64,000 nucleotides of DNA from Arthrobacter sp. HY1533 (GTDB taxonomy: Bacteria; Actinomycetota; Actinomycetes; Actinomycetales; Micrococcaceae), in contig NZ_JANKZF010000014.1 of the NCBI RefSeq assembly GCF_027568515.1, forward strand, positions 62,001 to 126,000, written 5' to 3'. Below, piece by piece: positions 18,947 through 30,093 of this stretch. The notes beneath the pieces are model-generated. The model saw nothing but the letters and a program-made list of their open reading frames with translations. It did no database searches and was not told the origin of the DNA. Each line of letters opens with the position of its first letter. Within the stretch, counting starts at the first letter, position 1. The position numbers and the translations under genes are program-made.

Positions 18947-20962
18947 ATGGCTGGGCTGATTAAACGTGAAGATATTGACGAGGTGCGCACGCGCACCGAC
19001 CTCAAGGAAGTCGTTGACGCCTACGTCACCCTGAAGTCCGCTGGAATTGGTTCCTACAAGGGCCTGTGCCCGTTCCATGATGAACGCAGCCCTTCCTTCC
19101 ACGTGCGCCCGCAGATGGGCTACTTCCACTGCTTTGGCTGCCAGGAAAGCGGCGACGTCATTTCCTTCATCCAAAAGATGGACCACATCTCCTTCTCCGA
19201 GGCGGTGGAGAAGCTGGCCGGGCGCATCGGCTACGAACTGCGCTACGAGGACGGCGGCACCGGCCCGCGCCGCGAGGACATTGGCCGCCGGCAGCGCCTG
19301 CTGGACGCCCACAAGATTGCCGGGGAGTTCTTCCGCGAACAGCTGGTCACCCCGGGCGCGGCGGCCGGCCGCCAGTTCCTGTCCGAGCGCGGCTTTGACC
19401 GTGCTGCCGCCGAACACTTTGGCGTGGGCTTCGCCCCGCAGGGCTGGGATGCGCTGCTCAAGCACCTCACGGGCAAGGGCTTCACGCACGAGGAACTGAA
19501 GCTGACAGGCATGTTCTCCGAAGGCAACCGCGGCATCTACGACCGTTTCCGCGGCCGGCTCATCTGGCCCATCCGCGACATTGCCGGGGACACCGTGGGC
19601 TTTGGCGCCAGGAAGCTGTTCGAGGACGACCAGGGCCCCAAGTACCTGAACACCCCGGAGACAACCCTCTACAAAAAGTCCCAGGTGCTCTACGGCATCG
19701 ACCTGGCCAAGCGGAACATCGCCTCGAAGCGCCAGCTGGTGGTGGTCGAGGGGTACACCGACGTCATGGCCTGCCACCTGGCTGGCGTCGACACAGCCGT
19801 GGCCACCTGCGGCACGGCCTTTGGTGCCGAGCACATCAAGGTGGCCCGCCGCCTGCTGTCCGACGACGGCACCGGCGGCGAGGTGGTGTTCACCTTCGAC
19901 GGTGACGCGGCCGGGCAGAAGGCCGCCCTGAAGGCCTTTGACGAGGACCAGCGATTCACGGCCCAGACGTTCGTGGCCGTGGAGCCCTCAGGCGCCGATC
20001 CCTGCGAACTCCGCCAGCGCAAGGGTGACGAGGCCGTCCATGCCTTGATCCGCTCCCGGCGCCCCCTGTTTGAATTTGCCATCCGCTCCACCCTGGCCAA
20101 GTACGACCTGAGCACGGTTGAGGGCCGGGTCAGCGGCCTGCGCGAATCCGCGCCGGTGGTGGCCGCGATCCGCGACGGCTCCACCCGGATGGGGTACAGC
20201 CAGGAACTGGCCGGCTGGCTGGGCCTGGCCGACCCCAACGAGGTGCTGCGCGCGGTGAAGAATGCCGAACGGCGCGCCCACAGCCCGGGCCAGCACGACG
20301 CCAAGGGGCACACCCAGCAGCGCGCCGGAGCGGCAGGCCCGCAGGGCGGCGGCCAGTTTGCCGCCAGCCACAACGGGTCACCGCAGCAGGGCGGAGGCCA
20401 GGGCCGTCAGCAGGCGGGGCCACCCCAAGGGTTCCAACAGGGCGCGCAGCAGATGAGCGCCCCGGAAGCGGAGGCCACCCCCACCATCGCGCGCCCGAAC
20501 CCCGGGGACCCCCAGGGCCGGATGGAGCGCGAGGCGCTGGAGGTAGTGTTGCAGCATCCCGGGTACCTCTCGGCCGGAAACTGGCAGCACTTTGGCGCCA
20601 CGGAATTCGTGGTTCCCGCCTACAAGGCCATCCAGGCCGGGATCGCCGCCGCGGGCCAGTCCGAGGAGACCTCGGTGCAGTGGCTGGAGGCCGTCCGCTC
20701 AAGCGTGCCGCCGGAGCTGGAATCACTCGTCGCCGAGCTGGCGCTCAGCCCCCTGCCGGCCACCCGGGAGGACACCCTGGCACGCTACTGCCGGGACATC
20801 CTGCGCAGGCTCTTTGAGCTGCAAATCACACGCCTGAAGGAGGAGCGGCTCGGGGCCCTGCAGCGCATGGATCCGGCCGTCGATCCGGAGAACTACCAGC
20901 TGCTGCAACGCGAGCTCATGGAGCTGGAAACGGCCCGCAGGCAGCTGCGCGGCGACGGATAA
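18947..20962 (+). CDS. dnaG: DNA primase
   Basis: Makes RNA primers for chromosome replication. The N-terminal CHC2 zinc finger is intact (C41, H44, C62, C65 in CPFHDE and HCFGCQ). The catalytic core with TOPRIM follows: the acidic residue in VVEGYTDVMA and the DGDAAGQKA metal-binding pair. A Gln/Gly-rich low-complexity linker (about residues 440-510) precedes the C-terminal DnaB-binding helical domain. Length 671, usual for actinobacteria. It follows dgt closely and precedes a tRNA-Asn pair, without a clear terminator in the 62-base gap. Confidence 0.96.
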   Translation: MAGLIKREDIDEVRTRTDLKEVVDAYVTLKSAGIGSYKGLCPFHDERSPSFHVRPQMGYFHCFGCQESGDVISFIQKMDHISFSEAVEKLAGRIGYELRYEDGGTGPRREDIGRRQRLLDAHKIAGEFFREQLVTPGAAAGRQFLSERGFDRAAAEHFGVGFAPQGWDALLKHLTGKGFTHEELKLTGMFSEGNRGIYDRFRGRLIWPIRDIAGDTVGFGARKLFEDDQGPKYLNTPETTLYKKSQVLYGIDLAKRNIASKRQLVVVEGYTDVMACHLAGVDTAVATCGTAFGAEHIKVARRLLSDDGTGGEVVFTFDGDAAGQKAALKAFDEDQRFTAQTFVAVEPSGADPCELRQRKGDEAVHALIRSRRPLFEFAIRSTLAKYDLSTVEGRVSGLRESAPVVAAIRDGSTRMGYSQELAGWLGLADPNEVLRAVKNAERRAHSPGQHDAKGHTQQRAGAAGPQGGGQFAASHNGSPQQGGGQGRQQAGPPQGFQQGAQQMSAPEAEATPTIARPNPGDPQGRMEREALEVVLQHPGYLSAGNWQHFGATEFVVPAYKAIQAGIAAAGQSEETSVQWLEAVRSSVPPELESLVAELALSPLPATREDTLARYCRDILRRLFELQITRLKEERLGALQRMDPAVDPENYQLLQRELMELETARRQLRGDG

Positions 20963-21024
20963 TCGGCACGGGACCACTCGATTTCACAACGGGGCAACCC
21001 TTTGTTATTGTTGTTCCTGCACGA

Positions 21025-21100
21025 TCCCCTATAGCTCAATTGGCAGAGCGTTCGACTGTTAATCGAAAGGTTCCTGGTTCAAGTCCAGGTGGGGGAGCCA
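21025..21100 (+). tRNA. tRNA-Asn (GUU), copy 1
   Basis: Cloverleaf with acceptor TCCCCTA pairing TGGGGGA, D-arm GCTCAATTGGCAGAGC, anticodon GTT at 21058-21060 in loop CTGTTAA, TψC arm CCTGGTTCAAGTCCAGG, and encoded CCA. It is identical to the copy at 21218. Confidence 0.97.
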
Positions 21101-21108
21101 AGGCAAAA

Positions 21109-21147
21109 ATTGTCTCCGGCCTCGTATCGGGGCCGGAGACAATTATT
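21109..21147 (+). terminator. Terminator after tRNA-Asn copy 1
   Basis: A 13-base stem (ATTGTCTCCGGCC, 21109-21121, with its complement at 21131-21143) around a nine-base loop, immediately followed by TATTGTG. The A/T-rich flanks fit intrinsic termination. Confidence 0.75.
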
Positions 21148-21174
21148 GTGTCGTGTGGGTGGAAATGATCGGTT

Positions 21175-21204
21175 TTGGTAATTACTGTGAGTTTCTGCTA
21201 AGGT
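21175..21204 (+). promoter_or_regulatory. Putative promoter of tRNA-Asn copy 2
   Basis: TTGGTA at 21175-21180 and TAAGGT at 21199-21204, spaced 18 bases and ending 13 bases before the tRNA. This fits a sigma-70 type -35/-10 pair and suggests the second tRNA is transcribed on its own. Confidence 0.5.
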
Positions 21205-21217
21205 AGTGTTGCTTCAT

Positions 21218-21293
21218 TCCCCTATAGCTCAATTGGCAGAGCGTTCGACTGTTAATCGAAAGGTTCCTGGTTCAAGTCCAGGTGGGGGAGCCA
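21218..21293 (+). tRNA. tRNA-Asn (GUU), copy 2
   Basis: Same 76-base sequence as copy 1, including the encoded CCA, with anticodon GTT at 21251-21253. The start-to-start distance is 193 bases, and the spacers differ, so the repeat unit is the tRNA itself. Confidence 0.97.
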
Positions 21294-21300
21294 TCGACAA

Positions 21301-21344
21301 AAGAACCCCCGCATTCCATGTGAATGCGGGGGTTCTTTTGTTTT
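21301..21344 (+). terminator. Intrinsic terminator after tRNA-Asn copy 2
   Basis: A 16-base perfect stem (AAGAACCCCCGCATTC and its complement) with a five-base loop, followed by TTGTTTT. A strong rho-independent terminator. Confidence 0.88.
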
Positions 21345-21453
21345 CCGGGCCGGCCCTTTTTGCGGCGGGCCATCAGGAATAAACTGGATGGCAGGTGCGG
21401 TCTGTCACACGTGCCCAGAGAAGCCCTCTTCGGAACAGAAAAGGAGCCCGGCC

Positions 21454-21846
21454 ATGTTGATTCGAATCCTGGCTGCCGTGGCAGTCTTTGTTTCAGCCCT
21501 CATCCACCTTGAGCAATGGTGGGTCGTGTTCCGAGACAATGCCTTCATGGCCCCCGCCATGTTGCTGAACTTTGGCGGCGGCGTCGTGATCGCCCTGCTC
21601 CTGCTTTTCTGGCGGCACTGGATCCCCCTGGCCCTTACGGTGCTCTTTGGCGCCTCGACGCTGGGCGCCTTCATTATTTCCGCCACCGTGGGCCTCTTCG
21701 GTGTTCACGAGCACTGGACGGGCTGGATCATTTTCACGGCCGCCGGCGTGGAGATAGCCGCGATCATCCTGGGCCTTGCGGGCCTGGCAATGGAACGCCG
21801 GCACCCACTGGCACCGCGGGCTGCGGCGTCTTCACACCTTCGGTGA
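21454..21846 (+). CDS. Small four-helix membrane protein, unknown function
   Basis: A 130-residue hydrophobic protein with about four membrane helices (around residues 3-22, 30-50, 55-80 and 90-115) and a short polar C-terminus. ATG at 21454 has AAGGAG 7 bases upstream (21441-21446). An open frame extends to 21388, but its extra residues are not hydrophobic and lack a ribosome site. The last 83 bases overlap the 3' end of the convergent CDP-alcohol phosphotransferase/sulfatase gene, an unusual antisense overlap. No family is recognised with confidence. Confidence 0.7.
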   Translation: MLIRILAAVAVFVSALIHLEQWWVVFRDNAFMAPAMLLNFGGGVVIALLLLFWRHWIPLALTVLFGASTLGAFIISATVGLFGVHEHWTGWIIFTAAGVEIAAIILGLAGLAMERRHPLAPRAAASSHLR

Positions 21847-24238
21847 CGGCGGCAGTGCCCGGGCTTGCGGAGTTGCCGCTGTAGGCTGCCAGGAAGTTGT
21901 CGCGAAAGTCGCTCATGGGCCAGACGGGTGCGCCGGACCCCGGCAGCATGCCATCCTGCCATCCCCACGGTGAGATAGCCGCCATGACGGCCGGATCCGC
22001 GGACATGATCGACACCGGAACGTCATGGCCGCCCCTGCCGCCGGAAACCTCAGGGGCCGGCTGGTGGTCGCCCAGCACAACCAGGACCAGGTTCGGGTCC
22101 GGGTGTGCGGCCACAAAGGAAAAGACGGTGTTGAGCGAATACTCGATCGACTCGCCGTAGAGGGCGCGCACCCGCGCGGGGTCGCCGGCCACGGATTCAG
22201 GGGTGGCGCCGCGCCCGGGCATGCCGTTGAACACGCTGCCGTCGCCCACTTCAGCCCACGGCACTGGAGAGGGCAGCGGCGTCCAAGGGGTGTGGCTTGA
22301 GACCAGGTCCAACTCGGCCATGACAGGGGAGCGTGGCGCCGGGGACAGCTCCAGCCGCTGGAAGGCCGACAGGACATACTGGTCAGGCATCGTTGCATAG
22401 CTGAATTTGGGGCCCGCATACCCAACATTGCGTGAATCGTAGAGCGCATCAAAGCCGTAGAACGCCTGGCCCTGGGGCCAGTCAGTGGTGTTTGAAGGGA
22501 CGTCGAAGACCGTACGCCAGCCAGCCTTGTGGAACGCCCCGGACAATGTCATCCGCCCGGTGGTGAGGAGCTGGTTGTAGCGCTGCTGGCTGTTGACCCA
22601 CGTCCCCGATTGCAGGGTTGAGTGGGCCAGCCAGCTGGCGCCGCCCAGCGTGGGGGAGGACAGGAACGCGCTGCGTGATGCAAAGCCCGCAGCCTCAAGC
22701 CGGGCGGTTCCGGCGGTGAGCGCGTCCTTGATGCCGGGGGAAAAGGACGAGCCCTCCACGGCGGACCGCCCATAGCTTTCAACAAACACGAGCAGCACGT
22801 CCTTTCCCCGGAGCCCGGACAGCAAGCCACCGGGATCCTGCGCCACGCCGGCGCCCGACATCCCGCCGGGCGAGATCGGGCCTGCGGCTCCCGTGCCCGC
22901 CCCGAAGATCGGGTCATGGGCAATTTCGGCGGCAAAGACGCCCCGGTCGGCCAGGTCGCGCTGCAGCTGGCGGACCTGGCCTGCCACGAATCCGGAGGAG
23001 CCGGCGGATGCCACCGGTGCCCCGGGCGCCCACGCCAGCCCCGCCGCCGCAAACAGCAGCCCGGCCGCACCCAGCACGGCCCAGGGGCCGAGCCACGCCC
23101 TGCGGTTGCCTGCCGCAGCCCGGACAAGCCGCAGCGTGGCCCGCGGCAGCAAGAACAGGGCAAGGGCAACGAACACCACAACCAGGGCCACAATGGCGAT
23201 GGCCCCGGCCTGCCCTATGGAGTCGCCCAGAACACCGGCTCCGGGGCCCAGGTAGTACCAGTCGTTGGCGGGGTCAAAACCGCGCCCAAAAGCCGATTCA
23301 AAGCCGGTGTTCAGGGCCTTCAGGACAAGCAGGCCCGCCAAGAGCAGCCCAAACGTCACGGCAAAGGGCCGCAGCAGGCGCACCGGCAAGAACAGTGCAC
23401 CACCCAGCAGCACGATCCCCTCGAGCGGGATGGCGGCCAGCGCCGCCGGTGTTGTCCCGGCAAGGTTTGCCGGGGCGGAGAGGACACACCACACCGCAAC
23501 CGCGGCCGTGACAGTCAGCACGCGCGGCGGCAGCACCACCTTTCCCGGATGCTCCCTGCGGTGACGCCACAGCCACCAGGCCTCCCGTCCGAACGATTCG
23601 GCCAGCATCGCCAGGGCAGCGAGCAGCAAGGCCGCCGCAAGCCAAGGCGGCAGCACCCCGGCGGCCGCAATGGTCAGGGCAATGCCCACCCCGGCTGCCA
23701 CCACCTTGTTCCAGTAACGGGGCGGGGCGTCGGCACGCAGCCAGGGCAGGAACCAGCCCGCGGCCACCAGCACATAGCGGGCGGCACCAAGCAACAGCAC
23801 CCAGCCACCCACCCGGGGCGCGGCGTAGGCGCTCAGGGCAAAGATGAGGAAAGCGTCAACTTCCATGTCAAAGCGTGCGCCAAGTTCCGACGTCGTGCCC
23901 GTCCTGCGGGCAACCTTGCCATCCACGGCGTCGAGCACGATGGTGCCCGCGGACAGTGCAACGAGGGCCGGCACGGCGGCGGGGGAGTAAAAGGAGTCGG
24001 CCACCAGCGCGGCGGCGCCGCCGGCCAGGACGGCGCGGAATGCCGTGACCCAGTCGGCGGGGCCGAACCCGGAACCGCGCTTCATGAGCGCCGCCGCGAG
24101 CAGGGCCCATACGGCCACCGCGTACAGCACGCCCGTGACCCAGCCTGCGGAGCCCAGGCCGACGCCCGCGGCCAGGGCAGCCAGCAGCAGCAACTGGCAA
24201 GCGAAGCCAGCGGCCGGACCGAGGTGCACTGTTCGCAC
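21764..24238 (-). CDS. Fused CDP-alcohol phosphotransferase and sulfatase/LTA-synthase-like membrane protein
   Basis: An 824-residue polytopic protein. The N-terminal third is a CDP-alcohol phosphotransferase with the complete DxxDGxxARx8Gx3Dx3D signature (D103, D106, G107, A110, R111, G120, D124, D128). More membrane helices follow to about residue 400. The C-terminal extracellular part is an alkaline-phosphatase-superfamily domain with E487 (FVESYGRS), candidate nucleophile T530 (LSSPTLGGASWLAH), H649 (SSHT) and D724-H725 (LGDHQPAPE). The first part would join an alcohol to a CDP-lipid or CDP-polyol, and the second could cleave or transfer phospho-head groups outside. GTG at 24238 with GGAGG. 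It is divergent from the pterin-like operon. Confidence 0.85.
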   Translation of the reverse strand: MRTVHLGPAAGFACQLLLLAALAAGVGLGSAGWVTGVLYAVAVWALLAAALMKRGSGFGPADWVTAFRAVLAGGAAALVADSFYSPAAVPALVALSAGTIVLDAVDGKVARRTGTTSELGARFDMEVDAFLIFALSAYAAPRVGGWVLLLGAARYVLVAAGWFLPWLRADAPPRYWNKVVAAGVGIALTIAAAGVLPPWLAAALLLAALAMLAESFGREAWWLWRHRREHPGKVVLPPRVLTVTAAVAVWCVLSAPANLAGTTPAALAAIPLEGIVLLGGALFLPVRLLRPFAVTFGLLLAGLLVLKALNTGFESAFGRGFDPANDWYYLGPGAGVLGDSIGQAGAIAIVALVVVFVALALFLLPRATLRLVRAAAGNRRAWLGPWAVLGAAGLLFAAAGLAWAPGAPVASAGSSGFVAGQVRQLQRDLADRGVFAAEIAHDPIFGAGTGAAGPISPGGMSGAGVAQDPGGLLSGLRGKDVLLVFVESYGRSAVEGSSFSPGIKDALTAGTARLEAAGFASRSAFLSSPTLGGASWLAHSTLQSGTWVNSQQRYNQLLTTGRMTLSGAFHKAGWRTVFDVPSNTTDWPQGQAFYGFDALYDSRNVGYAGPKFSYATMPDQYVLSAFQRLELSPAPRSPVMAELDLVSSHTPWTPLPSPVPWAEVGDGSVFNGMPGRGATPESVAGDPARVRALYGESIEYSLNTVFSFVAAHPDPNLVLVVLGDHQPAPEVSGGRGGHDVPVSIMSADPAVMAAISPWGWQDGMLPGSGAPVWPMSDFRDNFLAAYSGNSASPGTAAVTEGVKTPQPAVPVGAGVPLPGPQGPG

Positions 24239-24318
24239 TGTGCCTCCAGAGTTGGGACCCCAACAGTATTAGGATAGGGGCAATTGCGGGGCTGAACCCG
24301 TGAATCCGAGCCAGGGAT
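24239..24318. promoter_or_regulatory. Divergent promoter region of the CDP-alcohol/pterin-like locus
   Basis: Eighty bases between two GTG starts facing away from each other. The A/T-richer segment near 24262-24282 contains TAGGAT-like and, on the other strand, TAATACT-like -10 candidates. A shared control region would coordinate the fusion protein with the five-gene operon; no operator palindrome is obvious. Confidence 0.4.
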
Positions 24319-25350
24319 GTGAGCCCAGTGGACCGTGATGCCCTTGCCTACTGGCTTCAGGAGCCAGACATGGGGTTGATCCGCGCCGAGAGGCTGGCCG
24401 AGCCGGAACCCGGGCAGGTCCTGGTCCGCACCCTGTTCAGCGGCATCAGCCGGGCCAGTGAACTGCTGGTCCACCGCGGCGGCGTCCCGGCCGGGCAGCG
24501 GGAGGCCATGCGGGCCCCGTTCCAGGCCGGCAACTTTCCCGGCCCCGTCAAATACGGCTACCTCAACGTGGGCACGGTGGAGCTGGGGCCGGCGGAGCTG
24601 CTGGGCCGCACAGTGTTTTGCCTCTTCCCGCACCAAAGCGCCTATGTGGTGCCGCAATCCGCCGTCCATGTGGTGCCCGACGGCGTCCCCGCCCGCCGCG
24701 CCGTGCTCGCCGGAACCGTGGAGACGGCCGTCAATGCCCTGTGGGATGCGGCGCCGCTGGTGGGAGACAGGGTCGGGGTGGTGGGCGCCGGCATGGTGGG
24801 GTGCGCCGTGGCCCGGCTGCTGGCCGGCATCCCCGGAGTTGCGGTGGAGCTCGTGGACGTGGACCCGGCCAAGGCAAAAGTGGCTGCCGCCATGGGGGCG
24901 GGCTTTTCGCTGCCGGACGACGCCGGCGGGCCGGAGGGCTGGGACCTCGCCTTCCACACCAGCGGCACCTCCGCCGGGCTCCAACTGTGCCTTGACCGGC
25001 TGGCGCCCGAGGGGGAAGTCATTGAGCTGAGCTGGTACGGCGACGCCCCCGCCACCATCAACCTGGGCGGCAGCTTCCACCCCTCGCGGCTCGCCATCCG
25101 CTCCAGCCAGGTGGGGTCGGTGGCCCCGGCAAGGCGGCGCAACCGCACCCCGGGCAGGCGCCTGGAGCTCGCGCTGGAACTGCTGCGCGACCCGGCCTTT
25201 GACGCCCTCACCACGGGCACCTCCACCTTCAGCGAACTGCCGGGCGTCATGGCCAGGCTCGCCGACGGACGGCTGGAAGCCCTGTGCCACACCATCTCCT
25301 ACGGCACAGCCGTCCCCGACAACCCAGCCCCGACCGGAACGACAAGGTGA
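24319..25350 (+). CDS. MDR-superfamily dehydrogenase (zinc-type alcohol dehydrogenase-like)
   Basis: A 343-residue medium-chain dehydrogenase. The Rossmann nucleotide-binding motif is [16 protein letters not shown] (about residues 154-169), with an acidic strand end ([12 protein letters not shown]). The N-terminal catalytic half contains [13 protein letters not shown]. The usual Cys and His-Glu zinc ligands (for example GHE) and the four-Cys structural zinc lobe are not visible, so it may work without zinc. It probably oxidises or reduces an intermediate of the locus. GTG start at 24319. It heads a tight operon with the next four genes; the next ATG is 4 bases after its stop. Confidence 0.8.
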
Positions 25351-25354
25351 TGCC

Positions 25355-25753
25355 ATGTTCAGCGTGAGCGTCCGCGACCACATGATGATCGCCCACAGCT
25401 TCAACGGCGAGGCGTTCGGCCCGGCCCAGCGGTTGCACGGGGCCACCTACATCATCGATGCAACGTTCACCCGGGAGGAGCTCGACGCCAACGGCACAGT
25501 GGTCGACATCGGCGCCGCCGCAGCCGAGCTGCGCTCCATCGCGGAAGCACTGGGCTACCGCAACCTGGACGAGGACGCAGAGTTCGCCGGCATCAACACC
25601 ACCACCGAGGTGCTCGCCAAGACAGTTGCGGACCGCCTCGCCGCGCGAATCCACGCCGGCGCATTCGGCCCCGGCGCGTCAGGGCTGGCCGGCATCAAGG
25701 TGACCCTGCGCGAGTCGCACATCGCCTGGGCCAGCTACGAGCGTGCCCTGTGA
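25355..25753 (+). CDS. 6-pyruvoyl-tetrahydropterin synthase / QueD-like protein with altered metal site
   Basis: A 132-residue T-fold protein. The family pattern is clear: an N-terminal strand with H14 (MIAHSFNG), [13 protein letters not shown], the [18 protein letters not shown] segment and a C-terminal [10 protein letters not shown]. The canonical HGH of the zinc site is here H28-G-A30, so one zinc ligand is missing. The catalytic Cys position just before it also appears to be lost (AQRLHG). The reaction therefore probably differs from PTPS or QueD. ATG at 25355. It ends in a GTGA overlap with the glycosyltransferase. Confidence 0.83.
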
Positions 25754-26829
25754 CAACTCTGCACCTGGTGGTCCCCGCGGGCATCGACAACCCGGCACGG
25801 CCCAGCGGCGGCAACCACTTTGACCGGCGGATCGCCACGGCACTGGCCGGCCTGGGCTGGCGCATCGTGGAACACCCCTTGCCCGGCAATTGGCCCAGCC
25901 CCGCACCGTGCGACGCCGGGGCGCTCCCGCGGCTGCTGGCAGGCCTGCCGGACGGGGCCGTGGTGCTCCTGGACAGCCTGGTTGCACTGGCCAGCGCCGT
26001 CCCGGCCGCCACGGCAGGCAGGCTGCGGCTTGTGGTGCTGGTGCACATGCTGCTGGCTTCCGCGGACGACGCCGGTCCGAGGCTTGCCCGCGAACGTGCG
26101 GCACTGCGCCAGGCGGCAGCCGTGGTCACCACGAGTGCCTGGACCCGCGAGCTGATCGTGTCCCGGCACGGGATCGCGCACGGGGACATCCTGGTCCTGG
26201 AGCCCGGCACGGACAGGGGGCCGGTGGCGCCCGGAACACCGGGCGGCGGGGTGCTGCTGTGCGCCGCGGCCGTGACGGCCAACAAGGGCCACGACGTGCT
26301 GATCGATGCGCTGGCCGCTGTGGCCGGGCTCGACTGGAGCTGCACCTTTGCCGGTGCAACGGACATGGAGGCGGGCCTGATGGAGAAACTGCGCCGGCAG
26401 GCCAGCGATGCCGGCATTGCGGGGCGGCTGCACTGGCTGGGGCCGCTCACCCGGGCGGAGCTTGGCCGCAGCTACGCAGCCTCGGACGCCCTGGTCCTGG
26501 CCTCCCGGCAGGAAAGCTATGGCATGGTGGTGGCCGAGGCCCAGGCGCATGGTCTCCCGGTCATTGCCAGCAACACGGGCGGCGTGCCGGAGGCCCTGGG
26601 ACACAGCTCCCTGGGCACGGTGCCGGGCCTGCTGGTGCCGCCCGGCGACGCCTCCGCGCTGGCCGCCGCACTTCGCCGCTGGCTCGGGGACGCTGCCCTG
26701 CGGCACTCCCTGCGTGCAGCTGCCCTGGATCGACGGGACATCCTGCCGGACTGGGACGACGCCGCCGTTGCACTGGCCGGGCTGCTGTCCTTTCTGGCCG
26801 CCGCCCGCACCGAGACAGTTCGGCACTGA
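25750..26829 (+). CDS. GT4-family glycosyltransferase
   Basis: A 359-residue GT-B fold enzyme. The C-terminal nucleotide-sugar domain shows [14 protein letters not shown], a [28 protein letters not shown] run and the EX7E element in [22 protein letters not shown]. The N-terminal acceptor domain starts [18 protein letters not shown]. It would retain the anomeric configuration and transfer a sugar from a nucleotide donor. The acceptor is unknown but is likely made by neighbours. GTG start overlaps the upstream stop (GTGA), and the flippase-like gene begins 1 base after its own stop. Confidence 0.86.
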
Positions 26830-26830
26830 C

Positions 26831-27811
26831 ATGCCGGGGAGGAGGGTGCTGCTGGGCTGGCTGCAGGCCTTGGCGGGTGCCGCCGTGCTGGCGGCCCTGC
26901 TCTGGAAGCTCGGCTCGGGGCCCTTCATTGACGGCATCATGGCCGTGGACGCCCGGGCCGTGGCTGCCGCCATGGTGATCACCCTGGGCACCACCCTGTG
27001 CTGTGCCTGGCGCTGGCAGCTTGTGGCCCGGGGGCTGGGCCGGAACTTTCCCTACTGGCCCGCCGTGGCGGCCTACTACCGCTCGCAGTTCCTGAATTCC
27101 GTTCTGCCCGGCGGGATCCTGGGCGACGTCCACCGCGGCGTTGACCAGGGCAGCCGCGACGGGGACGTTGGCGCAGGGCTGCGGGCCGTGGCGTGGGACC
27201 GCGCTGCCGGACAGGCCGTGCAGCTGCTGCTGGCCGTGCTGGTGCTGACTTTCCTGCCGTCCCCGCTGCACGGCGTCGGAGCAGCCCTGGCCTGGGTTTT
27301 GCTGGCCCTTGCGGCCGCCGTGGCCGCCCTTGTCCTGTGGCCGCCGCGGTCCGGTGCACGGTGGTGGGCACGCGTCCTGCCTGCCGTGGCCTCCGATCTG
27401 CGCCACGGCCTGCTGCAGTGCCGCACCGCGCCGGGCATTGTGCTGGCCTCTGCCGGAGCCGTGGCCGGGTACACCGCCATCTTCGTCATTGCGGCCGGAT
27501 CCGCCGGGACAGCCGCCACGGCCACGCAGCTGCTGCCGCTGGCCATGTTCGTGCTGCTGGCCATGTCGGTTCCCGCCAGCATTGCCGGCTGGGGTCCGCG
27601 GGAGGGTGCCGCGGCGTGGGCTTTCATGGCTGCCGGCCTGGGTGCCGCGCAAGGGGTCAGTGCCGCCGTCGTCTATGGCGTGCTGTCGCTGGCCGCCTGC
27701 CTGCCGGGGGCCGCCGTGCTGCTGGCCGGCTGGCTTCGCCGGGGCCGTGCGCGGGGCCGGGCGGCGGTCCATGGCGGGCCGGGCGCCGCCGGGGGAGTGC
27801 GGCATGGCTGA
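26831..27811 (+). CDS. UPF0104 / lysylphosphatidylglycerol-synthase TM-domain membrane protein
   Basis: A 326-residue protein with about eight membrane helices. It carries the family phrase YYRSQFLNSVLPGGILGDVHRGV (about residues 82-104) and a later SVPASIAGWGPREGAAAWAF. Related proteins form the flippase part of MprF, so movement of a lipid or glycolipid across the membrane is plausible. There is no aminoacyl-transferase domain. ATG at 26831, immediately after the glycosyltransferase. It overlaps the reductase gene by 8 bases. Position between a glycosyltransferase and a reductase supports a role in a membrane-bound product, but this is inference. Confidence 0.82.
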   Translation: MPGRRVLLGWLQALAGAAVLAALLWKLGSGPFIDGIMAVDARAVAAAMVITLGTTLCCAWRWQLVARGLGRNFPYWPAVAAYYRSQFLNSVLPGGILGDVHRGVDQGSRDGDVGAGLRAVAWDRAAGQAVQLLLAVLVLTFLPSPLHGVGAALAWVLLALAAAVAALVLWPPRSGARWWARVLPAVASDLRHGLLQCRTAPGIVLASAGAVAGYTAIFVIAAGSAGTAATATQLLPLAMFVLLAMSVPASIAGWGPREGAAAWAFMAAGLGAAQGVSAAVVYGVLSLAACLPGAAVLLAGWLRRGRARGRAAVHGGPGAAGGVRHG

Positions 27812-28496
27812 ACGCCCCTACACGCTGCTCAGCGCCGCGATGTCGATCGACGGGCACATTGACGACGCCACGAGTGAGCGCCTGCTGCTCTCCAACGACG
27901 CGGACTTTGACCGGGTGGACGCCGTCCGGGCCTCCTGCGACGCGATCATGGTGGGCGCCGGAACCATCCGGGGCGACAACCCGCGCCTGCTGGTGCGCAG
28001 CGGTTCACGGCGGGGGCGCCGGGCGGAGCGGGGGCTGCCGCCGTCGCCCCTGAAGGTCACGGTGACCGGCGGCGGTCGGCTTGACCCGGACGCGGGATTC
28101 TTCACCGCAGGGGAGGCCGGCCGGATCGTCTACTGCACGAGCGCCTGCGTGGCTGCTGCCAGGGTGCGGCTCGGCGCGCTGGCCACAGTGGTGGACGGCG
28201 GGGAGCGCGTGTGGATGGCCGGCCTGAGCGAGGACCTCCATGCCCGCGGCGTGCGGCGCCTCATGGTGGAGGGCGGCCAGAGCATCCTGACCCAGTTCCT
28301 GGCCGAGGGGCTGGCCGACGAACTCCAGCTGGTGGTGGCCCCGTTCTTCGTGGGCGATGCCCAGGCCCCGCGCCTGGTGTTCGACGGCGTGTTCCCCTGG
28401 ACCGCCGAGCGGCCCGCCACCCTTGTCCAGGCCCTGCCCATGGGCGACGCCGTGCTGCTGCGCTATGCCCTGTCGGGGCGGTTCGAAGGACCCTGA
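27804..28496 (+). CDS. RibD C-terminal-type pyrimidine/pterin reductase
   Basis: A 230-residue protein of the RibD_C/dihydrofolate-reductase-like fold. Family marks include the N-terminal LLSAAMSIDGHIDD, then CDAIMVGAGTIRGDNPRLLVRS, a VRRLMVEGGQSILTQFL strand and loop, and LQLVVAPFFVGDAQAPRLV. The family reduces the ribose of a 5-amino-6-ribosylaminouracil phosphate or a similar ring with NADPH. No deaminase domain is attached. Next to a pterin-synthase-like gene, a role with a pyrimidine or pterin intermediate is likely. ATG at 27804 has GGGGGAG (27791-27796) upstream. Confidence 0.84.
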   Translation: MAERPYTLLSAAMSIDGHIDDATSERLLLSNDADFDRVDAVRASCDAIMVGAGTIRGDNPRLLVRSGSRRGRRAERGLPPSPLKVTVTGGGRLDPDAGFFTAGEAGRIVYCTSACVAAARVRLGALATVVDGGERVWMAGLSEDLHARGVRRLMVEGGQSILTQFLAEGLADELQLVVAPFFVGDAQAPRLVFDGVFPWTAERPATLVQALPMGDAVLLRYALSGRFEGP

Positions 28497-28511
28497 GCCC
28501 GTCCAATTAAG

Positions 28512-28550
28512 CAAAAAGGCGCGGGCCTGCGCAGTGCGCAGGCCCGCGCC
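28512..28550 (-). terminator. Strong intrinsic terminator of the MFS gene
   Basis: A 15-base perfect stem (GGCGCGGGCCTGCGC and its complement, 28518-28532 with 28536-28550) and a three-base loop. Read on the minus strand it is followed by TTTTTGC. It lies just past the MFS stop and may also stop plus-strand reading from the reductase gene. Confidence 0.88.
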
Positions 28551-28555
28551 GTTGG

Positions 28556-29776
28556 CTACAGTTTCGGCACGGTGCGCGGCCTGACAATGACCCACAGGGC
28601 GACCATGGCCAACAGGCTGCACGATCCCATGATCAGGCCCATGGGCGTTGACGTGGTGACGCCCACGAAGCCGACCACGGGGGTGATCAGGCCGGCGAAG
28701 CCGAACGTCACGGCGCCGAGGAGCGAGGCCGCGGTGCCGGCCTGCTTGCCGTTGCGGGCCAGGCCCATGACCTGCACCGAGGGGAACATGAAGCCCGTGG
28801 CGCAGATGAAGAACCACAGCGGCACCATGACACCCCACAGGCCAAAGCCAAGCTGGTCAAACACCACCATCGCGACAGCCGCAGCCACCTGGGCCACGGT
28901 GGCCCATGCAATGACCCACTGCGGACCGGTGTGGCGCATGATCCGCGAGGCAATCTGCACACCTGAAACAACGCCCAGGGAATTCACGGCAAACAAGAAG
29001 CCATACTGCTGCGGGGTAAAGGCGAACGTGTTCTGGAACAGGAAGGTGGACGCCGACAGGTAGGTGAACAGGGCGGCAAAGTTAAAGCCACCAACAAACA
29101 AGGTGCCCACAAAGATCCGGTCGCTGAACACCGCCTTGTACCTGTCGGCGACCCGCACGCCGTCGGAATGCCGCTTTTCGCGCGGCAGGGTCTCAATGAT
29201 GAAAACGGAGGTGGCCAGCACGACCAGGGCGCCGTAGCCGGCAAGGAACCAGAAGATGCCGGGCCAGTCCATGATGCCCAGCAGCTGTGAGCCAATCACG
29301 GGTGCAAGAATCGGGGCCATGCCGTTGACCAGGGACATGTAGGAGAGCATCTTCACCAGGCGGTAACCGGCAAAGAGGTCACGGATCATGGCCATGGCAA
29401 CCACGCCGCCACCGGCCGCGCCAATGCCCTGAAGCACGCGGAACACGCCCAGCATGGTGATGTCGGTGGACATGGCAGCGCCGATCGATGCGCCCACGTG
29501 CAGCGCAGTTGCCAAAATGAGTGGCATGCGCCGGCCGAACTTGTCGCTGAACGGGCCAACCACCAGCTGGCCGGCGGCGAAACCGATCGTGGTGGCTGTC
29601 AGGGTCAGCTGCACGGCCGTGGCCGTGATGCCCATCTCCTGTTCAATAATCGGGAAGGCTGGCAGGTACAGGTCAATGGTGAACGGGCCCAGGGCGGTCA
29701 GCAGCCCCAGCACCAGGACGTAGATCAGTTTCTGCCGGCGCGACAGGGCGTCGCCGGGGTGAACGGTGGTGGTCAA
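28556..29776 (-). CDS. MFS exporter, Bcr/CflA drug-resistance type
   Basis: A 12-helix major facilitator protein of about 406 residues. The Bcr/CflA subfamily phrase GPFTIDLYLPAFPIIEQEMG is at the N-terminus. The loop 2-3 motif GPFSDKFGRRMPL and a VFRVLQGIGAAGGGVVAMAMIRDLF segment (motif C-like region) follow. It should export drugs or small metabolites using proton motive force. The TTG at 29776 with GAGGA 8 bases upstream is the likely start. An ATG further out (29848) would add a polar, atypical stretch. The gene is transcribed toward the RibD-type reductase and ends in a strong terminator. Confidence 0.87.
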   Translation of the reverse strand: MTTTVHPGDALSRRQKLIYVLVLGLLTALGPFTIDLYLPAFPIIEQEMGITATAVQLTLTATTIGFAAGQLVVGPFSDKFGRRMPLILATALHVGASIGAAMSTDITMLGVFRVLQGIGAAGGGVVAMAMIRDLFAGYRLVKMLSYMSLVNGMAPILAPVIGSQLLGIMDWPGIFWFLAGYGALVVLATSVFIIETLPREKRHSDGVRVADRYKAVFSDRIFVGTLFVGGFNFAALFTYLSASTFLFQNTFAFTPQQYGFLFAVNSLGVVSGVQIASRIMRHTGPQWVIAWATVAQVAAAVAMVVFDQLGFGLWGVMVPLWFFICATGFMFPSVQVMGLARNGKQAGTAASLLGAVTFGFAGLITPVVGFVGVTTSTPMGLIMGSCSLLAMVALWVIVRPRTVPKL

Positions 29777-30093
29777 GTAAGGAGTCCTCAAGAATGTGGT
29801 GTGCGCGCGGTGCAGGAAAGCCCTTGTGGGGACAACCCCTTGGATCATGTTAGGTGGTCATGGCAGGCCAAGGCAGGGCGCCCTGTGCAAATTTGGCGTC
29901 CATCGGCCAACAACTCACATGCGGCCTTTACTATTCCGCAACCTCGCCCCGGCCCAGGACGGACCGCGCCCCCGGCGATGGGTGGTAATTTTGAGTTTAC
30001 GGTTGTGCCGCTGGGTGAGGGCGCTACAAAGATTTCGGGTTCGTGCGGATCTTTACGCATTCTGCACGGACCCTCATTATGGAGGCGGTCTCA
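29777..30093. other. Divergent intergenic region between MFS and holin-like genes
   Basis: About 317 bases without a gene, holding promoters for both directions. The plus-strand part (29920-30060) is less GC-rich, with TTTGAGTTTACGG and TACAAAG stretches that could contain promoter elements. I looked for a ydaO-type or other riboswitch core and did not see one. Confidence 0.4.

Follow-up and report, generated by a model that had tools for sequence, protein, structure and literature searches.

Which product could be made by a gene cluster that places pyrimidine- and pterin-type enzymes beside enzymes of the membrane? The question is raised by a locus in a 64,000-nucleotide stretch of DNA (hereafter the window) from the soil actinobacterium Arthrobacter sp. 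HY1533 (contig NZ_JANKZF010000014.1, positions 62,001 to 126,000). The set consists of a minus-strand gene, in which a CDP-alcohol phosphotransferase is fused to a sulfatase-fold domain, and five plus-strand genes (24319-28496) for an MDR dehydrogenase, a PTPS-type protein, a GT4 glycosyltransferase, a flippase-like membrane protein and a RibD_C reductase. A preliminary description, made from the letters alone, had reported five packed genes divergent from the fusion gene over 80 bases, and every gene was recovered at the coordinates given there, with gaps of 4 and 1 bases and overlaps of 4 and 8 bases within the run. Our preferred reading, which we hold tentatively, is that the locus encodes a dedicated pathway in which a pterin-type head group is built from GTP, glycosylated and placed in the membrane or envelope.

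The first issue is the nature of the PTPS-type protein, which had been labelled 'QueD-like'. By its motifs and matches it belongs to the orphan PTPS-IV subfamily and not to QueD. The nearest solved protein is SCO6650 of Streptomyces coelicolor (PDB: 3d7j), to which it aligns across all 132 residues (E 9.5e-58), whereas solved QueD and PTPS structures reach E 3.5e-4 or worse. The paper on the SCO6650 structure reportedly describes a zinc-free protein that has a pterin-type pocket and lacks PTPS activity. The window protein contains no cysteines, a 10-residue segment occupies the place of the Cys/HGH site, and the HGH motif of QueD is aligned to HGA. Among the 81 PTPS proteins from such clusters, that of the window included, HGA is found in 81 and HGH in none, FGPAQ is present in 80, and 9 have a cysteine anywhere in the sequence. 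PTPS-I/QueD proteins are defined by the motif CxxxHGH in a passage of a review (PMC5041015), and a section of the AGeNNT study (PMC5445326) gives PTPS-IV the signature FGPAQ, with PF00925 and PF01872 as neighbours; the window protein lacks the former motif and carries the latter signature. The QueD model TIGR03367 gives it 38.7 bits, against a cut-off of 89.25, and a QueD or biopterin function is rejected on this score together with the motif (HGA and no HGH).

A second issue is whether these genes belong together. They recur as a unit, beyond chance, and the mention in the preliminary description of similar groupings in other actinobacteria proved sound. A scan for relatives in named genomes gave at least 503 confirmed cases, of which the best 80 were used; 65 of these are well covered, with at least 4.5 kb before and at least 6.5 kb after the PTPS gene, and the other 15 were dropped for short flanks. 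Presence was counted by tblastn, because genes poor in G+C at the third codon position escaped a simple gene caller. The 65 well-covered loci contain genes for the MDR dehydrogenase (64), the GT4 glycosyltransferase (64), the flippase-like protein (63), GTP cyclohydrolase II (GCH II, PF00925; 62), the CDP-alcohol phosphotransferase (59), a methyltransferase (59), RibD_C (PF01872; 38), a creatininase-family protein (28) and the sulfatase-fold domain (21). Of the two neighbour families in print for PTPS-IV, PF00925 and PF01872, the window has PF01872 only. In the typical order a CDP-alcohol gene faces the run MDR-PTPS-GT4-methyltransferase-flippase-GCH II-RibD_C; the window shows the SCO6650-type order MDR-PTPS-GT4-flippase with a divergent CDP-alcohol gene. 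As a control, the best 80 relatives were sorted under 14 labels (the genus, or the first title word for metagenome-assembled genomes): no flanking family outside the cluster was common to more than 4 labels, and the families that exceeded this number, reaching 6-14, were those of the cluster alone.

Among these best 80 of at least 503 relatives, the two closest named loci are from Arthrobacter, at 80% identity. An even sample of the phylum contained PTPS-IV in 10 of 396 genomes at E <= 1e-30, and the sample of relatives in 16 of 58. Two of the ten are diverged or partial (G008 and G028), and the rest are the window genome and L116-L122, all seven of which carry genes for the CDP-alcohol phosphotransferase, MDR dehydrogenase, GT4 glycosyltransferase, methyltransferase, flippase-like protein and GCH II. 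As an observation apart, one locus (L041:10525-12762) has the glycosyltransferase and methyltransferase in a single 746-residue open frame that reaches the contig end, possibly a fusion.

The third issue, the precursor, is best approached through GCH II. Work by Spoonamore and colleagues in 2006 reportedly showed that a Tyr-to-Met switch makes SCO6655, the S. coelicolor GCH II homologue, stop at the formylated pyrimidine. In the 63 loci with a called GCH II (the locus L039, with only a GCH II fragment, stands outside them), the switch residue is Tyr in 35, none of which has a creatininase gene, and Met (27) or Leu (1) in 28, all 28 of which have a creatininase-family gene. Eleven further loci, none of them a copy of a named locus and one (L115) on a short contig, agree without exception (5 Tyr without, 6 Met with the gene). 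The switch residue hence predicts the creatininase gene in 74 of 74 loci: 40 Tyr without and 34 Met/Leu with it. Non-cluster GCH II proteins have Tyr in 17 of 17 readable cases, one more being unreadable. For the creatininase family one gene, that of L030, was scanned, and it matches PF02633 with 214 bits; a creatininase-like formamidase of Sinorhizobium, BrbF, is described in a passage of PMC9478397 as deformylating the same compound. Furthermore, GCH II and RibD_C form a single protein in L105 and L106, diverged clusters of the window's own family (PF00925 201 bits each; PF01872 123 and 140 bits). The GCH II/creatininase coupling and these fusions together indicate that the cluster pathway most likely consumes 2,5-diamino-6-ribosylamino-pyrimidinone phosphate (DARoPP), which is also a precursor of flavins and deazaflavins.

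The window cluster contains no dedicated GCH II; the sole PF00925 match in the genome lies on contig C16 among riboflavin-type genes, adjoining genes read as ribE, ribB and ribH, with a RibD_C match 2 kb away. Since this is the only GCH II of the genome, the window cluster would have to borrow its DARoPP from the riboflavin enzyme. Two observations on GCH II elsewhere may be recorded here. Cluster-bearing Streptomyces-type genomes have a second locus (L181, L182, L184, L185 and L186) with a RibD-size gene close to GCH II; the two second-locus GCH II proteins that were read (L147 and L148) both have Tyr, and the one reductase of these loci in the tree, that of L181 (as L158), groups with cluster reductases. 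In G008, GCH II is fused to acyl-CoA dehydrogenase-type domains in a 610-residue protein (L180:9858-11690) near two RibD_C matches and away from the PTPS-IV locus of that genome.

The RibD_C domain covers residues 5-196 of the 230-residue reductase, and no N-terminal deaminase domain, as would mark a bifunctional RibD, was found by the Pfam scan. Its best NCBIfam model is TIGR01508 (2,5-diamino-6-ribosylamino-pyrimidinone 5'-phosphate reductase; 129.6 bits, under the cut-off of 186.45), and the solved relatives are 5xux (E 8e-30), which we take to be archaeal Rib7, and 6p8c (E 4.6e-25); it is thus apparently closest to the 2,5-diamino-type reductases. Without a deaminase part the 2-amino group would stay in place, as in a pterin and unlike a lumazine. 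The MDR dehydrogenase weakly resembles polyol dehydrogenases: L-idonate 5-dehydrogenase and L-iditol 2-dehydrogenase are matched with E 4.2e-5 over part of the protein only, and the NCBIfam model BchC gives 37.8 bits against a cut-off of 291. What we take to be the usual N-terminal zinc-ligand pattern of MDR enzymes is missing from it. The best solved relative of the glycosyltransferase is 6kih (E 3.6e-15), and a phosphatidylinositol-mannoside mannosyltransferase and an inositol 3-phosphate glycosyltransferase are also among its solved relatives.

The membrane part includes the fusion protein. Its N-terminal CDP-alcohol phosphotransferase domain spans residues 61-209, with the motif DAVDGKVARRTGTTSELGARFDMEVD starting at residue 103 of the 824-residue frame (residue 100 in an 821-residue call of the same frame). 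The family motif, presumably D..DG..AR.{8}G...D...D, is complete in all 64 called domain-bearing proteins (59 stand-alone, 5 fused). The middle part is of membrane type, judged from composition, and the C-terminal domain shows the sulfatase-fold motifs ESYG, SPTLGGASW, SSHTPW and GDHQP. No Pfam match at E <= 0.001 was obtained for this C-terminal half, and 8 of 11 stand-alone relatives match Sulfatase at E <= 0.01 (best 4.8e-9). In 25 sulfatase-fold sequences the Thr pattern is present in 22 and GDHQ in all, and we take the E, T and GDH motifs to be LtaS-like, catalytic Thr included; the sole solved match of the relatives' profile at E <= 0.1 is the lipoteichoic acid primase 4uop, at just E 0.0039. 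The dehydrogenase, glycosyltransferase, UPF0104 flippase-like protein, RibD-type reductase and fusion are as the preliminary description had them. For the flippase-like protein, TIGR00374 gives 28.5 bits, under its cut-off of 43.2.

The fusion is found in the window and in L003, L004, L006, L033, L040, L110, L111 and L113, that is, in Arthrobacter-type genomes, Marmoricola, some metagenome-assembled genomes and G432, and in many Micromonospora loci the two genes are separate and adjoining. This linkage suggests that the CDP-alcohol and sulfatase-fold domains may act on a common substrate. In the locus L112 (5863-8085) the fusion frame stops early relative to nine aligned relatives, perhaps as a broken gene or an assembly error; the structure alignment A4 was made without L112 on this account, and also without L110, L111 and L113.

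From these families we infer a function for every enzyme and the following course for the pathway. 1) GTP would be converted to DARoPP, here via the riboflavin GCH II and in most relatives by their own GCH II, or by a Met-type GCH II with a creatininase-family deformylase. 2) RibD_C would reduce the ribosyl side chain to ribityl, giving 2,5-diamino-6-ribitylamino-pyrimidinone 5'-phosphate. 3) The MDR enzyme might oxidise the 2'-hydroxyl; with that group oxidised, N5 could close on C2' to yield 7,8-dihydroneopterin monophosphate, and PTPS-IV, having lost the Cys/HGH chemistry, is the natural candidate for closing this ring, so that a 7,8-dihydroneopterin-monophosphate-like polyol would arise without GTP cyclohydrolase I. 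4) The glycosyltransferase would add a sugar, and in most relatives the methyltransferase would act as well. 5) The CDP-alcohol phosphotransferase would link polyol and lipid phosphate, the product would be flipped by the LPG_synthase_TM protein, and the sulfatase-fold domain would add or remove a phospho group outside. The complete version of this scheme, namely a glycosylated lipid whose pterin or ribityl-diaminopyrimidine head group is made via DARoPP with GTP cyclohydrolase I bypassed, by means of a zinc-free PTPS-fold cyclase, a CDP-alcohol anchor and a fused outside phospho-transfer domain, is doubtful in its entirety.

Several observations weigh against the pathway to a membrane- or envelope-bound head group. 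On the precursor side, Met/Leu GCH II was found only in named Streptomyces loci and six genomes of one genus, three of which were placed in the tree and group with the Streptomyces loci; being so confined to Streptomyces-type loci, the Met/creatininase coupling may go back to a single event in evolution or a small number of them. Among NCBIfam models the L030 creatininase is matched best by mycofactocin MftE (141.3 bits; cut-off 172), the ArfB deformylase model being among the weaker matches (38.2 bits). Independent recruitment of GCH II to the cluster had to be dropped, the p-AU of 0.003 from cluster rows alone rising to 0.37 with the sister paralogues L142, L147 and L148. A like proposal for RibD_C was also dropped, p moving from 0.0003, in a tree made without L164, to 0.0498 once L155 and L158 were included. 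RibD_C is missing at 27 of the 65 well-covered loci. On the membrane side, the top solved matches of the CDP-alcohol profile are choline/ethanolamine phosphotransferases (8gyw, E 9.7e-6), with PssA next. The CDP-alcohol gene is missing at 6 of the 65 loci, namely five from Micromonospora and L074, and the sulfatase-fold gene at 44. L074 (10001-10399; Streptomyces sp. NBC_01549) is the one well-covered locus at which PTPS-IV has none of its usual partners within 10 kb, and the diverged loci L102, L104 and L107 show just MDR-PTPS-GT4 nearby.

The gaps on the membrane side give most room to a first alternative, in which the MDR-PTPS-GT4 core, with or without the methyltransferase, makes a soluble glycosylated pterin or pyrimidine metabolite (a signal, pigment, redox compound or antibiotic) that the flippase-like protein exports, the CDP-alcohol and sulfatase-fold enzymes serving for tailoring or a side branch. 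MDR-PTPS-GT4 is the smallest set in diverged clusters, and the trait is patchy and accessory; with the CDP-alcohol gene absent from some loci and the sulfatase-fold gene from most, a soluble exported product is a possible outcome. We regard it as rather unlikely, however, given the CDP-alcohol gene near PTPS-IV at 59 of 65 loci and its retention in the diverged L103, L105, L106 and L108 (tblastn scores 90-115); a further diverged locus, L109, is cut by the contig end.

The loci without RibD_C bear on a second alternative, in which DARoPP would be turned into dihydroneopterin monophosphate by PTPS-IV alone, through the Amadori rearrangement and ring closure that form the latter half of GTP cyclohydrolase I catalysis; RibD_C and the MDR enzyme would modify the side chain afterwards. 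The T-fold is common to PTPS and GTP cyclohydrolase I, and 24 of the loci in question are Streptomyces with GCH II and creatininase and no local RibD_C. In six of these genomes RibD-like genes lie at other sites and share 27-36% identity with the L030 reductase, and the two such reductases put in the tree (L155 and L158) fall among the cluster reductases; in these Streptomyces either a distant reductase may serve or the ribosyl form may cyclise by the Amadori route. As a general account this route seems improbable, for 38 of 65 loci retain RibD_C and two diverged loci have it fused to GCH II, which suggests reduction straight after DARoPP.

A third alternative, that the cluster serves not for a surface product but to make or modify a cofactor of the deazaflavin (F420-type) or flavin class, can appeal to the role of DARoPP in feeding both cofactor classes and to a passage of the review (PMC5041015) in which PTPS-IV is given a part in archaeal F420 synthesis, as unpublished work. 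It appears very improbable in view of the glycosyltransferase, flippase-like protein and CDP-alcohol enzyme that neighbour FGPAQ PTPS-IV proteins, and of the finding that no F420 or lumazine enzyme was seen, by Pfam, among the families recurring in more than 4 labels. The notion of ordinary queuosine/biopterin (QueD/PTPS) or spare riboflavin genes as chance neighbours, which would follow from the names given by family searches, is scarcely credible beside the uniform HGA, the neighbourhood kept across genera and the riboflavin-type genes sitting together on contig C16, and a spare riboflavin operon is rejected because the cluster families include neither a deaminase nor a lumazine or riboflavin synthase.

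The cluster, whatever its product, is an accessory trait located at a tRNA-Asn hotspot. PTPS-IV is carried by 6 of 23 same-genus genomes, the window's included. In 13 of the 17 that lack it, the distance from dnaG to the MFS gene is 0.42-1.04 kb (8 genomes) or 2.5-7.7 kb (5 genomes); no match to any cluster gene was found in the five long intervals, which are filled by unrelated genes, and two tRNA-Asn genes are present in all eight intervals examined (five long, three short). This patchy carriage and the variable intervals place the cluster in an insertion hotspot, at 20962-28556 in the window (from dnaG and the two tRNA-Asn genes to the MFS gene), and mark it as not essential. The convergent Bcr/CflA-type MFS gene itself (28556-29848) was rejected as a cluster member, since it lies beyond a likely terminator and is kept in 13 of 13 PTPS-IV-less same-genus genomes searched; the scan that listed this terminator found 7 such sites where 3.6 were expected from shuffles. 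At the other end, a small membrane-type protein is a candidate extra member where the CDP-alcohol/sulfatase-fold enzyme is fused: it was matched at 7 of 192 loci searched, corresponding to five genomes (L111, L124=L003, L114=L004, L113 and L006; one from Marmoricola, the others from Arthrobacter or the genus of the window), every one adjoining the fused gene.

Table 1. Features of the locus, with positions in the window
Feature	Position	Strand	Evidence or remark
CDP-alcohol phosphotransferase/sulfatase-fold fusion, 824 aa	21764-24238	-	Pfam PF01066 (CDP-OH_P_transf) 35.8 bits, motifs, alignment
MDR-type NAD(P) dehydrogenase, 343 aa	24319-25350	+	ADH_zinc_N 22.1 bits, below the 31.8 cut-off
PTPS-IV protein, 132 aa	25355-25753	+	PF01242 79.6 bits; 3d7j (SCO6650) E 9.5e-58
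GT4 glycosyltransferase, 359 aa	25750-26829	+	PF00534 (Glycos_transf_1) 101.2 bits
LPG_synthase_TM/UPF0104 flippase-like membrane protein, 326 aa	26831-27811	+	PF03706 104.4 bits
RibD_C pyrimidine reductase, 230 aa	27804-28496	+	PF01872 125.4 bits
Likely terminator	28518-28550	listed on -	15-pair G+C-rich palindrome with T-run, between the RibD_C gene and the convergent MFS gene
Small membrane-type protein, 130 aa	21454-21846	+	tail-to-tail with the fusion gene, ending inside its 3' end
Two tRNA-Asn(GTT) genes	21025-21293	+	mark the insertion hotspot

Part of the preliminary interpretation hence stands, namely that actinobacteria conserve a unit in which enzymes of pyrimidine/pterin type adjoin membrane enzymes, and the QueD identity falls. 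PTPS-IV is a subfamily with many members and a solved structure (3d7j), for which the sole function claim found is the unpublished F420 link in that passage of the review (PMC5041015). Here it is connected with a pathway comprising as many as ten gene families, for which DARoPP is put forward as a substrate open to test. No product of the cluster was described in the literature searched, which was one paper collection covered by titles, abstract starts and passages. A lipid-linked product, if such it is, would represent a class of membrane molecules without description in that literature, and its synthesis another route to pterins; in the window variant, which would depend on the GCH II of riboflavin synthesis, a surface or secreted trait would be coupled to the supply of flavin.

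How, finally, does the locus compare with known systems? The neighbourhood is already partly in print: cluster-node 62 in the AGeNNT study (PMC5445326) is a PTPS-IV neighbourhood with the same FGPAQ signature and the neighbours PF00925 and PF01872. The section on the large-node network names only those two and gives no product, and in it glycosyltransferase, methyltransferase, flippase-like, CDP-alcohol, sulfatase-fold and creatininase genes are without mention. With the archaeal early riboflavin pathway (GCH III, ArfB and the 2,5-diamino reductase) the cluster type shares a route in which Met-type GCH II and creatininase would give DARoPP in two steps, and a reductase that best fits TIGR01508; unlike it, the cluster families have no deaminase, lumazine or riboflavin synthase. 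The CDP-alcohol catalytic motif is like that of archaetidylinositol- and phosphatidylinositol-phosphate synthases, and all 14 stand-alone members scanned weakly match the archaetidylinositol-phosphate synthase and PssA models (the former with 24-26 bits in three members, against a cut-off of 180); they differ in that choline-type structures score best and in the sulfatase-fold fusion of some lineages. The sulfatase-fold domain presumably resembles the LtaS/LtaP phosphoglycerol transferases in its motifs, as in its match to 4uop, and differs in that the L033 and L011 proteins score under the Pfam Sulfatase cut-off. A further counterpart is SCO6650-SCO6655 of S. coelicolor, running from the PTPS to the GCH II homologue, for which we infer the order PTPS-GT4-methyltransferase-flippase-creatininase-GCH II from its locus numbers and from how the genes of L079 are arranged. 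SCO6652, presumably the methyltransferase of this region, appears in passages of PMC3610822 as a hypothetical protein whose log2 ratios in second mycelium are 0.8 at 24 h, 4.3 at 48 h and 4.1 at 72 h. Compared with the S. coelicolor region, the window cluster has no GCH II, creatininase or methyltransferase genes and adds a RibD_C gene and the fused enzyme: it is a variant with a fused CDP-alcohol/sulfatase-fold enzyme, its own RibD_C and a borrowed GCH II.

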